A stretch of 64,000 bases of DNA from Thermomonas sp. XSG (lineage in GTDB: Bacteria > Pseudomonadota > Gammaproteobacteria > Xanthomonadales > Xanthomonadaceae): NCBI RefSeq assembly GCF_014678725.1, contig NZ_CP061497.1, positions 992,001 to 1,056,000 on the forward strand, read 5' to 3'. Position 1 is the first letter of the stretch. Each line of letters begins with the position of its first letter. Below, one piece after another: positions 41,629 through 46,003 of this stretch. Below the pieces are notes generated by a model. That model was given only the letters and a program-made list of their open reading frames with translations. It searched no databases and was not told the origin of the DNA. A program made the position numbers and the translations under genes.

Positions 41629-42036
41629 TCAGTGGCGCCGATCGAAGCGCAGCAGAAAATCGCGCAGCGGGGTGAATGCGGTGGCCAGCCCGATCAGGAC
41701 GCCAAGCGTATTGGCCAGCGCATCGTTGCGGTCGAGCATCCGGCCCAGCTTCATCGACGCCTGCAGGTACTCCAGACCGATCCCCATCAATACCAGCAGC
41801 AGGCAGATGAAGCCCCACGACAGCCGCCGCGCGAACAGCTGCACCGCGCCCGCCGCCAGCGCCGCGTAGGCGGCGAAATGTTCCAGCTTGTCGCTGACCG
41901 GCAGCGGCGGCAGGTCCTTGCCAGGCAGCAGCGAACCGATCACCACGATGGCGATCGCCAGCATCCACAGTCCGGCCCACAGCCAAGGCCGCCTGAACGG
42001 CTTGAGCGAACGGCCGATACGTGGCACGCGGCTCAC
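41629..42036 (-). CDS. VanZ-like membrane protein
   Basis: A 135-residue protein with four predicted membrane helices and the VanZ pattern: SLLPGKDLPPLPVSDKLEHFAAYAAL, then LLLVLMGIGLEYLQASMKLGRMLDRNDALANTLGVLIG (core GRMLDRNDALANTLG). The start is GTG 42036, ten bases after the midA-like stop, so it is the last gene of the folB-SDR-PTPS-midA operon. VanZ homologues affect teicoplanin resistance in enterococci, but most chromosomal copies have no assigned role. Confidence 0.82.
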   Translation of the reverse strand: MSRVPRIGRSLKPFRRPWLWAGLWMLAIAIVVIGSLLPGKDLPPLPVSDKLEHFAAYAALAAGAVQLFARRLSWGFICLLLVLMGIGLEYLQASMKLGRMLDRNDALANTLGVLIGLATAFTPLRDFLLRFDRRH

Positions 42037-42046
42037 CGGCAGCAGC

Positions 42047-43237
42047 TCACAGGCGATGGCTCAGGTCGCCGACCAGGAAGGCCGCGTCGAGTTCGACGCC
42101 GCGCTGGAAGCCGATCGCCTGGAAGCGCTCGCCCATCTCGCTGGGCAGGGTCAGGATCTTGGCCTGCTGGCGCAGGTTGTGGCGCGCCACTTCATCGGCG
42201 GTCTGCGCTTCGGCAGCGGCAAGGTTTTCCTGCAACCGGTTGCCGAGCAGGAAGCTGGCCTGCGAGCAGTAACCGGAGAACTCGAAGCCCGCACCCACGC
42301 CGGCTTCGGCCAGCGCGGTGAAATCCACCGAGGCGGTGATGTCCTGTAAGCCGGGCCAGGCGAACACGTCATTGGTGACGTGGTGCTGGCGGAACGCGCG
42401 CAGGGTGCCATCGTCGCGACCTGGCTGGTAGTACTCGCCGCGCGAATAGCCATAGTCGATGAACAGCAGCGCGCCGTTGCGCAGGCCGCCGGCCACCGCC
42501 TGCAGCCAGTACGGCAGCTGCGCCAGCACCTCGCTGCGGTAACCATCGGCGAACGGCGCCGGCAACTGCGATTCGACGCGGCGCACGGCGGCCGCCAGCA
42601 TCGGGTCGGCGGGTTGCTCGGCACGCACGAAGCGGCCTTCGCCATCCAGCGACACGCACTCCTCCAGCACCTCGCCAGCGCGAATGGCGAAGCGCGGCGT
42701 CGGCAGCGCATCGATCACCTCGTTGGCGAACAGCACGCCGTCCCACGGTTCCGAGATCGGCCCGTCCAGCCATTCCACCCGTGCGAACAGCTCCGCCGGC
42801 AGCCGCGCCTGCAGCCGCTCACGCTGGCGCTGGCGCAGGTCGGCGCTGGGCTCCAGGATCGCGTAGCGCGCCGGCGGCACGCCATCGGCCTGCAGCTTTT
42901 CCAGGCAGGCCTCGGCGAACGCACCGCTGCCGCCGCCCACCTCCATGAACACCGCACCCTTGCCGGCCTGCCGCAGCGCCGGCGCCAGCGCGTCAGCCAC
43001 GCAGGCCGCGAACAGCGGCGAGCGCTCCGGCGCGGTGGTGAAGTCGCCGCCCGGGCCGAACTTGTGCGCGCCGGCGCTGTAGTAGCCCAGTCCCGGCGCA
43101 TACAGCGCCAGCTCCATGAATTTCCAGAACGGGATGCGACCGCCGGCAGCGATGATCTGTTCCTGGATCACCTCGCGCAGGTGCGCGCTGTGCGCCTGCG
43201 CATCGGCGGATGGCATCGGCAGCGTGGACGCGGCCAT
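42047..43237 (-). CDS. SAM-dependent methyltransferase of the MidA/NDUFAF7 (DUF185) family
   Basis: A 396-residue class I methyltransferase. Signatures are RIPFWKFMELALYAPGLGYYSAGAHKFGPGGDFTTAPE (core GYYSAGAHKFGPGGDF), the SAM-binding FMEVGGGSGAFAEA, ANEVIDALPTPRF and LLFIDYGYSRGEYYQPGRDDGTL (core DYGYSRGEYY). The eukaryotic homologue dimethylates an arginine of the complex I 49-kDa subunit during assembly; a similar NuoD target is plausible but untested. ATG 43237 overlaps the stop of the PTPS gene by one base (TGATG). Confidence 0.9.
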   Translation of the reverse strand: MAASTLPMPSADAQAHSAHLREVIQEQIIAAGGRIPFWKFMELALYAPGLGYYSAGAHKFGPGGDFTTAPERSPLFAACVADALAPALRQAGKGAVFMEVGGGSGAFAEACLEKLQADGVPPARYAILEPSADLRQRQRERLQARLPAELFARVEWLDGPISEPWDGVLFANEVIDALPTPRFAIRAGEVLEECVSLDGEGRFVRAEQPADPMLAAAVRRVESQLPAPFADGYRSEVLAQLPYWLQAVAGGLRNGALLFIDYGYSRGEYYQPGRDDGTLRAFRQHHVTNDVFAWPGLQDITASVDFTALAEAGVGAGFEFSGYCSQASFLLGNRLQENLAAAEAQTADEVARHNLRQQAKILTLPSEMGERFQAIGFQRGVELDAAFLVGDLSHRL

Positions 43238-43728
43238 CAGTCGAGCTCCATGCGCCGGCCGGCGCTCTGTCCCGGTCCGGAAAACACCCGCACCTCGATC
43301 GCCGCGATGGCGTGTGCACGCAGCGCGTCGCGGTCCTCGCACAGCCGCTGCAGGAACCAGTACGCGAACTCCTCCAGCGTGGCGTTCTCGATCGGCAGCA
43401 GCAGCACGTCGCCGCGCAGGAACGGGATGCGCTGGCCGTTGAAATGCGCATGCACGTGCTCGCCGGCTTCCTCGATGCGCAGGAATTTCGACCGCGTCGG
43501 CAGAATCGTCCACTCGTTCAGTTCGCGGCACAGCGCGACGACGCGATCCTTGTAGATGCCGTAGTCGAAGCACATGCCGTTGCCCAGCATGCGTGCATGG
43601 ATGTCGACCTCCACGGTGAAGTTGTGGCCGTGCAGGCGTTCGCGTTCGGTCGCGTTGAAGATGGTGAAATGCGCCGCCGAGAACTTCATGTTCTGCTTGG
43701 CCAGGCGGATGACGACGGACGGGCTCAT
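43237..43728 (-). CDS. PTPS-III-like pterin synthase (6-pyruvoyltetrahydropterin synthase family)
   Basis: A 163-residue T-fold protein that binds zinc through His20, His33 and His35 (SAAHF and RLHGHNF). The catalytic cysteine four residues before HGH in QueD is replaced: the segment reads E28-R-E-R-L-H-G-H, with Glu30 three residues before His33. The longer C-terminal region (ILPTRSKFLRIEE, LLLPIENATLEEFAYWFLQRL) resembles the PTPS-III group of Plasmodium and some bacteria, which converts dihydroneopterin triphosphate to 6-hydroxymethyldihydropterin and so bypasses FolB. QueD activity (queuosine) is unlikely. ATG 43728 overlaps the SDR stop (ATGA). A folB gene is present in the same operon. 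Confidence 0.8.
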   Translation of the reverse strand: MSPSVVIRLAKQNMKFSAAHFTIFNATERERLHGHNFTVEVDIHARMLGNGMCFDYGIYKDRVVALCRELNEWTILPTRSKFLRIEEAGEHVHAHFNGQRIPFLRGDVLLLPIENATLEEFAYWFLQRLCEDRDALRAHAIAAIEVRVFSGPGQSAGRRMELD

Positions 43729-44429
43729 GGGAAATCCGCCTCTTCGATGTCGCCGAGCTGCGGGCGCATCAGGATGTCCTCGACCACCGTGCGCGCCGAC
43801 AGCGACCACGCCGTCCACGCCATCTCCGCCACGTCCGCGGCCGGCATCAGCCGTTCCGGCGGCAGCGGCACGCCGTCCCACGAGGCGGTCAGGGTCGCGC
43901 CCGGCAGCAGCGCCACCACGCGCACGCCGTGCGGCTTCATTTCCTCGCGCAGGTTGCGCGAGAAGCCGTACAGCGCGTGCTTGGCGATGCTGTAGGAACC
44001 GCCGTTCGGGTAGGCGGCGATGGACGCGGTGCTGCACACGTTCAGCACCATGCCGCTGCGCCGTTCGACCATCTTCGGCAGCAGGCGCCTGGTCAGGCGG
44101 TAGGCGCCGAACAGGTTGGCCTGCAGCATGTCCAGCAGGGCGCCGTCGTCCTCGCCGGCGATCCCGCCGGGCCGGAACGCGCCGGCATTGTTCACCAGCA
44201 GGTCGACAGCGCCGTGCTGCGCGAGGACGTCGCGCGCCAATGCATCCACGGCGTCGCCGTCACGCATGTCGCAGGCATGGCATTCGACCTGCGGCAGTGC
44301 GGCGCGCAGCGCGTCCAGCGCCGCCTGTCCGCGCGCGCAGGCGATCACGGTGGCGTCTTCGCGGGCGAAGCGTTCGACGATGGCGCGGCCGATCCCGCGC
44401 GAGGCGCCGGTCACCAGCACCACGCTCAT
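43725..44429 (-). CDS. Short-chain dehydrogenase/reductase, sepiapterin-reductase-like
   Basis: A 234-residue classical SDR. It has cofactor motif TGASRGIG (residues 7-14), NNAG (80-83), the catalytic serine region CSTAS (132-136), and YSIAK with Tyr146 and Lys150. An Arg rather than Asp/Glu after the second strand (CARG) suggests NADP(H). The C terminus, RTVVEDILMRPQLGDIEE, closely recalls the end of the Chlorobium sepiapterin reductase, as I remember that protein. Position between folB and the PTPS gene, with ATGA overlaps on both sides, supports a pterin substrate. A generic 3-oxoacyl reductase cannot be excluded. Confidence 0.8.
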   Translation of the reverse strand: MSVVLVTGASRGIGRAIVERFAREDATVIACARGQAALDALRAALPQVECHACDMRDGDAVDALARDVLAQHGAVDLLVNNAGAFRPGGIAGEDDGALLDMLQANLFGAYRLTRRLLPKMVERRSGMVLNVCSTASIAAYPNGGSYSIAKHALYGFSRNLREEMKPHGVRVVALLPGATLTASWDGVPLPPERLMPAADVAEMAWTAWSLSARTVVEDILMRPQLGDIEEADFP

Positions 44430-44785
44430 GCAAAACTCCCGCGCTCGATCTCCACGCCCACCGCCGCGGCGTTCGCCAGCGCGTCCGGCTTGGACAACTT
44501 CAGCCGCACCGCCTTGGCGCCGAATTCGGTCAGTATCAGGTCGGCGCAGCATTCGGCCAGCGTTTCCACCAGCATGAAGTCGGTCTGCGCAACGTAGTCG
44601 GCCAGCCGCAGGCTCACCGCCTCGTAGTCCAGCGCATCGGCCAGCGTGTCGCTGCTGGCGGCAATGCGGTTGTCGAAGCGCATGCGGATGTCCAGCAGCA
44701 CCGGCTGGGTGGCGTGGCGCTCACGGTCGTGCACGCCGATCAGGGCGTCCAGGCGCAGGCCTTCGATGAAAACGGTGTCGGTCAT
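44426..44785 (-). CDS. folB: Dihydroneopterin aldolase
   Basis: A 119-residue T-fold enzyme of folate synthesis that cleaves (or epimerises) dihydroneopterin to 6-hydroxymethyldihydropterin. The catalytic set matches E. coli FolB: Glu22 in VHDRER, Tyr54 in LDYEAV, and Lys99 in LKLSKPDAL; IERGSFA closes the protein. ATG 44785 (MTDTVFIEGLRL) is chosen, although no strong ribosome binding site precedes it. It heads a tightly coupled operon with an SDR, a PTPS-III-like enzyme, a MidA-like methyltransferase and a VanZ protein. FolX-type epimerase activity toward monapterin is an alternative. Confidence 0.92.
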   Translation of the reverse strand: MTDTVFIEGLRLDALIGVHDRERHATQPVLLDIRMRFDNRIAASSDTLADALDYEAVSLRLADYVAQTDFMLVETLAECCADLILTEFGAKAVRLKLSKPDALANAAAVGVEIERGSFA

Positions 44786-44896: not shown

Positions 44897-45913
44897 TCAC
44901 ACCGCCGCGAGCGTCGCCATGTCCCAGCGCGGCACCGCGCGGATCGCGGCATCGTCGTGCTGGCCGGCGGCCAGCCGCAGCGCGCCGGCAAACGCGATCA
45001 TCGCGCCGTTGTCGGTGCACAGCGCCGGGCGCGGGAAGCAGGCCCGGCCGCCGCGCTTCCCGCACATCTCCACCAGCTTGGCGCGCAGCCGCCGGTTGGC
45101 GCCCACGCCGCCGGCCACGATCAGGGTGTCTGTGCCAGCCGCATCCAGTGCGCGGCCACACTTGATCGCCAGCGTGTCCACCACCGCATCCTCGAAGCCT
45201 CGGGCGATGTCGGCGCGGGTCTGCTCGGACTGGTCGCTGTCGCGCCACGCCAGCAGCACCTGCGTCTTCAGGCCGCTGAAGCTGAAATCCAGCCCCGGCC
45301 GGTCGGTCATCGGCCGAGAGAATCTGAATTTCCCCGGCACGCCCTGCTCGGCCAGTCTGGCCAGCTGCGGCCCGCCCGGATACGGCAGGCCCATCATCTT
45401 GGCGGTCTTGTCGAAGGCCTCGCCGGCGGCGTCGTCCAGGGTTTCGCCCAGCAGCCGGTAGCTGCCGATCGCATCCACCGCCACCAGCTGGGTATGCCCG
45501 CCGGACACCAGCAAGGCCACGAACGGCGGCTGCGGTGCGTCTTCCTCGATCAGCGGCGCGAGCAGGTGGCCTTCCATGTGGTGCACGCCGATCGCCGGCA
45601 CGTCCAGCGCCCATGCCAGCGAGCGGGCCACGCCCGCGCCGACCAGCAGCGCGCCCACCAGGCCGGGCCCGGCGGTATAGGCCACGCCATCGATGTCGGC
45701 GGTGGACAGGCCGGCTTCGGCCAGGGTCTGGCGGATCAGCGGCAGCAGCTTGCGCACGTGGTCGCGGCTGGCCAGCTCCGGCACCACCCCGCCGTATTCG
45801 GCGTGCAGGGCGATCTGGCTGTAGACCGCATGGGCGCGCAGGCCGCCTGCGCCGGTGTCGTAGACCGCGACGCCGGTTTCGTCGCAGGAGGATTCGATGC
45901 CAAGGACGTTCAT
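44897..45913 (-). CDS. tsaD: tRNA N6-adenosine threonylcarbamoyltransferase TsaD
   Basis: This enzyme transfers threonylcarbamoyl to A37 of ANN-decoding tRNAs, with TsaB, TsaC and TsaE. The 338-residue ASKHA-fold protein has [19 protein letters not shown] at the start, the metal-binding HHMEGH motif ([11 protein letters not shown]), [25 protein letters not shown] and [15 protein letters not shown] 45913 is chosen for the conserved N terminus. It is divergent from rpsU with 90 bases between them, the usual arrangement in gammaproteobacteria. Confidence 0.97.
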
Positions 45914-45922
45914 CCCCCTATC

Positions 45923-45952
45923 TTGCGCCGAAACCTGGGCTGCTGCTATCAT
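45923..45952 (+). promoter_or_regulatory. Candidate sigma-70 promoter for rpsU
   Basis: TTGCGC (45923-45928), an 18-base spacer and TATCAT (45947-45952) lie in the tsaD-rpsU divergent gap, giving a 5' leader of about 45 bases before the rpsU start. The -35 element is moderate and the -10 good. Confidence 0.5.
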
Positions 45953-46003
45953 GCGCGGCTCGCCCACTTGTCCGGGCGAATTCTCCAGTCACGAGATTCC
46001 CCG

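Follow-up and report, generated by a model that had tools for sequence, protein, structure and literature searches.

The synthesis of tetrahydrobiopterin (BH4) in mammals, cyanobacteria and Chlorobium combines sepiapterin reductase with PTPS-II, a member of the 6-pyruvoyltetrahydropterin synthase (PTPS) family; which reduced pterin serves as a cofactor in most bacteria is, to our knowledge, poorly known. Another type of the family, PTPS-III, is recognized by the signature motif ExxHGH (PMC5041015), and the PTPS of Plasmodium yields both 6-hydroxymethyldihydropterin and 6-pyruvoyltetrahydropterin, the former output being ascribed by its authors to a Cys to Glu change (PMC2229834). Here we describe a folB operon that encodes a PTPS-family protein together with a short-chain dehydrogenase/reductase (SDR) and is located in a 64,000-nucleotide stretch (hereinafter the window; positions 992,001 to 1,056,000 of NZ_CP061497.1) of the genome of Thermomonas sp. 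XSG, a single contig of 3.05 Mb whose gene content was examined family by family. The SDR and PTPS genes form a cassette that was acquired and inserted in place of two other genes, folK2 (a second folK) and ptr (encoding a pteridine reductase); it is best interpreted as a variant module, PTPS plus a reductase, to which the pteridine reductase gave way.

The operon consists of five genes on the minus strand of the window, in the order folB (44426..44785; dihydroneopterin aldolase, 119 aa), SDR (43725..44429; 234 aa), PTPS (43237..43728; 163 aa), midA and vanZ. Four-base ATGA overlaps connect folB with the SDR gene and the SDR gene with that for PTPS, PTPS and midA have TGATG in common, and vanZ starts 10 bases past midA, so that the recomputed junctions from folB to vanZ are -4, -4, -1 and +10. 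The coupled arrangement described in a first-pass annotation, made from the sequence alone, is thereby confirmed, with the families assigned using Pfam and NCBIfam models (for VanZ, slightly below the cut-off). The folB product matches PF02152 (103 bits) and exceeds the cut-off of the TIGR00525 FolB equivalog (86 bits, cut-off 72), with a score below that required by the FolX model (55.6 bits, cut-off 152); it is the only PF02152 match, and hence the sole FolB-family protein, in the genome, which excludes FolX as a second one. G146 and G283, two relatives within Thermomonas, have the same gene order, as do about a dozen other loci of the genus, indicating that the arrangement goes beyond chance; in these loci, the -4 overlap is retained at nearly all folB/SDR and most SDR/PTPS junctions. 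The pN/pS values for PTPS and the SDR range from 0.05 to 0.28, and therefore both are under purifying selection.

The cassette is not general in Xanthomonadales, as became apparent from the synteny survey that the first-pass annotation had called for: PTPS is present in only 5 of the 200 genomes of the order; FolB is nearly universal in the family (117 of 119 genomes). Among the family loci without the cassette, those that span folB to midA were considered testable (n = 18). All of them contain an antisense ptr gene between folB and midA, accompanied in 16 cases by folK2 (e.g., L048:5229-6463), and this is the ancestral content of the interval. The ptr product scores above the cut-off of the NCBIfam equivalog for pteridine reductase (353 bits, cut-off 288), and TIGR01498 likewise recognizes the folK of this interval. 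None of the cassette loci carries ptr, that is, the two are mutually exclusive at this locus, and in G160, a genome of the same genus that lacks the cassette, the folB-midA interval holds antisense ptr. In line with the replacement, G000, G146 and G283 encode one FolK, compared with two in relatives, and a genome-wide search of these three for a ptr orthologue found none. Relocation of ptr to another part of the genome was accordingly rejected; what remains as the top match has 43% identity and, with its TGGARGIG motif, is an SDR of the generic kind.

A different layout is seen in Pseudoxanthomonas jiangsuensis, where a membrane protein gene separates folB from the SDR gene, folK2 is kept with a gap of about 75 bases to midA, and there is no ptr at the locus. 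Given that folK2 remains in this organism and ptr does not, the cassette tracks the loss of ptr in particular. The cassette region here (L093:5535-12210) is inserted between folB and folK2, and the genes around the cassette, as named by eye, appear to encode a protease, an ATP-grasp/alpha-E pair, a channel of the MscS-like type and a membrane protein. With an apparent exchange of a Ptr route for a PTPS-plus-SDR route among close relatives, the two can be compared directly at a single locus.

The PTPS-family protein (PF01242, 52 bits) has as its closest relatives in the PDB the PTPS of Plasmodium vivax and P. falciparum. Its AlphaFold model (predicted local distance difference test score, pLDDT, 94.7) aligns with the P. 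vivax enzyme (2a0s) with a template modelling (TM) score of 0.92 and a deviation of 1.4 Å, compared with TM scores of 0.47-0.59 for the listed QueD chains. Apart from the fold, the protein shares with Plasmodium PTPS and bacterial PTPS-III (COG0720) an insert of about 25 residues, the Zn-binding histidines (H20, H33 and H35) and Glu in place of the active Cys; the respective motif, R29-E30-R-L-H33-G-H35, fits ExxHGH, and neither CxxxHGH nor CxxxxxHGH is present, with Thr27 found at the position of the PTPS-II Cys. In the phylogenetic tree, it groups with proteins from Plasmodium, Myxococcota and Planctomycetota (98/97), separately from QueD, so that the Plasmodium-like or PTPS-III-like identity proposed in the first-pass annotation is borne out by motif, insert, structure and the phylogeny that it had suggested as a check. 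Within this clade, Plasmodium PTPS itself pairs with proteins from Myxococcota (99/97). The closest bacterial relatives of Plasmodium PTPS (L126, L127 and L128 from Myxococcota; L129 from Planctomycetota) come from genomes without a FolB match.

Compared with Plasmodium PTPS, the Thermomonas protein carries substitutions at two active-site positions. Glu72 takes the place of the LDH histidine, as it does in all bacterial long-insert proteins of our column table, and Ser150 takes the place of the Glu in the VxVxE strand in the gammaproteobacterial proteins and their relative from Sericytochromatia, with no exception among the 18 clade members tabulated. The proteins of Myxococcota and Planctomycetota keep the VxVxE-strand Glu, and Plasmodium PTPS keeps both residues. 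As established for rat PTPS and QueD, we take this Glu to be the pterin anchor and the His to be a member of the catalytic triad. No variation is seen at the Zn ligands, E30 or Glu119. To judge from the two substitutions, the protein is no plain PTPS-III, and, rather than replacing FolB in the genome, it is encoded in the same operon. Across genomes, FolB is present in 25 of the 27 with the Ser-containing clade, versus none of the four with the Glu-anchored sister clade; this pattern is confounded by ancestry yet is in keeping with a function that has shifted away from replacing FolB. In this clade, which is kin to the malaria enzyme and has lost two active-site residues while keeping the Glu of the motif, it becomes testable how the anchor residue, the dependence on FolB and the product are related.

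These observations bear on two alternative explanations. Under the first, the protein is a genuine PTPS-III that gives folate synthesis another source of 6-hydroxymethyldihydropterin in addition to FolB, with the SDR being incidental. The signature motif, the Plasmodium-type structure and the operon shared with folB all agree with this; the intact FolB, retained in nearly all genomes of the clade, the missing pterin anchor, the overlap coupling of the SDR gene in most loci and the departure of folK2, whose product consumes 6-hydroxymethyldihydropterin, upon the arrival of the cassette make it very unlikely. For the same reason, namely that FolB persists and that the His of the catalytic triad and the Glu anchoring the pterin have been replaced, two redundant routes to this compound, which were central to the first-pass annotation, are improbable. 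The second alternative is that the Ser150/Glu72 clade is a neofunctionalized T-fold enzyme acting on some other pterin or purine-like compound, for example in the salvage or repair of oxidized pterins, with the SDR reducing its product. The fixation of both substitutions, the coexistence with FolB that sets this clade apart from the Glu-anchored one, and an SDR partner that varies between lineages all speak for this. Considering, however, the invariant Zn ligands, E30 and Glu119, a fold nearly identical to that of P. vivax PTPS, and the location of the gene within a folB operon where it displaced pterin genes, we consider this explanation unlikely.

The partner of PTPS in the operon is an SDR (adh_short; TGASRGIG and YxxxK motifs) that resembles sepiapterin reductase, as the first-pass annotation had it. 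The C-terminal third of SDRs carries substrate specificity, and for this part of the protein the top PDB match is the sepiapterin reductase of Chlorobium tepidum (2bd0, E = 7e-7), which is also the first whole-chain match of the SDR family profile (1.2e-35). With the AlphaFold2 model as the query, 2bd0 again ranks first in both Foldseek and VIA-align (Z 30.1, 2.0 Å over 227 residues); these rankings are close together and are counted as support only. In addition, Trp184, which is invariant in nine SDRs of the family, aligns with Trp196 of the C. tepidum enzyme, a residue required for substrate binding (PMC7520308). The motif rule for pteridine reductases is TGX3RXG (PMC13259868). The Ptr of G160, an example of the displaced enzyme, conforms to it (TGAARRIG), and the cassette SDR, with TGASRGIG (TGX3GXG), is excluded as a pteridine reductase.

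In pairing a PTPS-family enzyme with an SDR similar to the C. tepidum reductase down to its Trp196, the cassette resembles the BH4 pathway, from which it differs in the absence of the CxxxxxHGH Cys characteristic of PTPS-II and in its location in a folB operon. The similarity to the tetrahydromonapterin route of the FolM/PruA/PTR1 type consists in the locus, which that route occupied in relatives, and in the same presumed tetrahydropterin output; the differences are the SDR motif and the accompanying PTPS.

We tentatively propose, with confidence just short of even, that the transferred SDR-PTPS cassette makes a biopterin-like tetrahydropterin in place of the Ptr route. The cassette would have been gained by horizontal transfer and inserted behind folB in the ancestor of most Thermomonas, where it would have taken the place of folK2 and antisense ptr. 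As to a plasmid-borne origin of PTPS, a tblastn search against 72,556 plasmid records yielded zero matches, and this source was rejected. For the substrate, product and cofactor role, we infer the following. PTPS would convert dihydroneopterin triphosphate to a pterin with an oxo group in the 6-side chain (6-pyruvoyltetrahydropterin or a close relative), perhaps along with some 6-hydroxymethyldihydropterin. Since a Plasmodium-type PTPS is overlap-coupled to a sepiapterin reductase-like SDR, the oxo-pterin could pass to the latter, which would reduce it to a biopterin-like tetrahydropterin. This compound would serve as a cofactor, most plausibly for phenylalanine hydroxylase (PhhA), in place of tetrahydromonapterin made by the Ptr route, while FolB, the remaining FolK and QueD would go on serving folate and queuosine synthesis. 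PhhA is encoded in all tested cassette genomes of Thermomonas and Pseudoxanthomonas, with one copy in the genome containing the window, and its presence together with the displacement of ptr suggests that the output is a tetrahydropterin acting as a cofactor. Of the unconventional pterin pathway envisaged in the first-pass annotation, the production of a pterin cofactor beside folate accordingly survives as the best reading, whereas redundancy as its central point does not. The displacement of folK2 and ptr, the Glu72/Ser150 variant, and PTPS-SDR operons with a queuosine precursor transporter in marine genomes without QueD are additions to that annotation.

The marine operons come from 18 gammaproteobacterial genomes assembled from metagenomes (G295-G312; loci L100-L124, e.g., L102:6968-8962) and consist of the PTPS gene, usually followed by a gene for another SDR, and then by that for the transporter YhhQ (PF02592/TIGR00697). 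G016 and G034, which belong to the same order as the window, carry the same PTPS-SDR-YhhQ trio.

Several observations weigh against the proposed BH4-like route. The substitutions at Glu72 and Ser150 affect residues kept by QueD and Plasmodium PTPS, so the reaction may differ; FabG-type SDRs tie with 2bd0 within one Z unit; and, the loci being related by descent, the replacement counts as one or two events, that is, at most two independent ones. PhhA does not track the cassette, being present also in G160, which has ptr instead, and is found in only 5 of the 18 marine genomes with PTPS; as the sole partner of the cassette it was rejected on these grounds (13 of the 18 marine carriers lack it). 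The marine SDR differs from that of Thermomonas, without the Trp and with another tail, and the gene adjoining it encodes YhhQ. This context weakens the claim of a hydroxylase cofactor for the PTPS clade as a whole.

The marine genomes also suggest a connection to queuosine. Of the 18, 17 encode no PF01242 protein other than this PTPS; QueC is present in 15, in one of them as a fragment; and in most of the marine loci read, queC is located next to queE (named from the sequence, with no model), the two genes lying behind tol-pal. This distribution suggests that the marine PTPS-SDR pair replaces QueD there and provides a specific candidate for the QueD that marine gammaproteobacteria lack. An extension of this idea to Thermomonas would be an alternative QueD (PTPS-I) throughout, such that PTPS and the SDR jointly supply QueE with 6-carboxytetrahydropterin or an equivalent compound. 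The marine gene content and the operon with the precursor transporter speak for it. QueD and the PTPS share the COG0720 fold. In Thermomonas, however, the protein lacks the Cys motif of QueD and scores 42.7 bits with the QueD equivalog model, below the cut-off of 89.25, and a separate canonical QueD with the Cys, encoded elsewhere in the genome, scores above it (107.6 bits), so that the PTPS was rejected as the QueD of this genome. Furthermore, the cassette sits with folB, not with queuosine genes, and contains an SDR of another kind. A search for Rfam families, including the preQ1 and THF (tetrahydrofolate) riboswitches, with E values up to 1 admitted at the window locus, gave no match there or at ten relative loci of the Thermomonas and marine types, and riboswitch control was rejected. 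Taken as a whole, this explanation appears quite unlikely. A broader version seems rather doubtful but somewhat better placed: the Ser150/Glu72 clade would be an unrecognized COG0720 subfamily with a new, SDR-dependent reaction, in which the marine pair replaces QueD and the Thermomonas pair, with a sepiapterin reductase-like SDR, was recruited into the folB operon and displaced ptr.

Other COG0720 proteins were noticed in these genomes. G295 encodes, between queC and queE, a 363-residue protein with three tandem PTPS domains, only one of which has the Cys motif (L219:5178-6269). G016 and G034 encode, next to an apparent glutamyl-tRNA synthetase gene, a further COG0720 protein that is highly divergent and has a CxxxHGY motif (L230:5697-6152 and L231:6486-6938, respectively); it is perhaps the QueD of those genomes.

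The other components of the neighborhood in the window include tsaD (44897..45967, minus strand; TIGR03723, 435 bits), which is the conserved upstream anchor of the locus, and cca, which lies downstream of the folB-vanZ block on the opposite strand. The two remaining genes of the block, both on the minus strand, encode a MidA-like S-adenosylmethionine-dependent methyltransferase (42047..43237; Methyltransf_28, PF02636, 180 bits) and a VanZ-like membrane protein (41629..42036; PF04892, 29.9 bits with a cut-off of 30.1). In relatives without the cassette, midA adjoins the folB locus as well, with vanZ kept behind it. Hence midA and vanZ are old neighbors of folB across the family that stand outside the pterin cassette, with which midA is probably co-transcribed.

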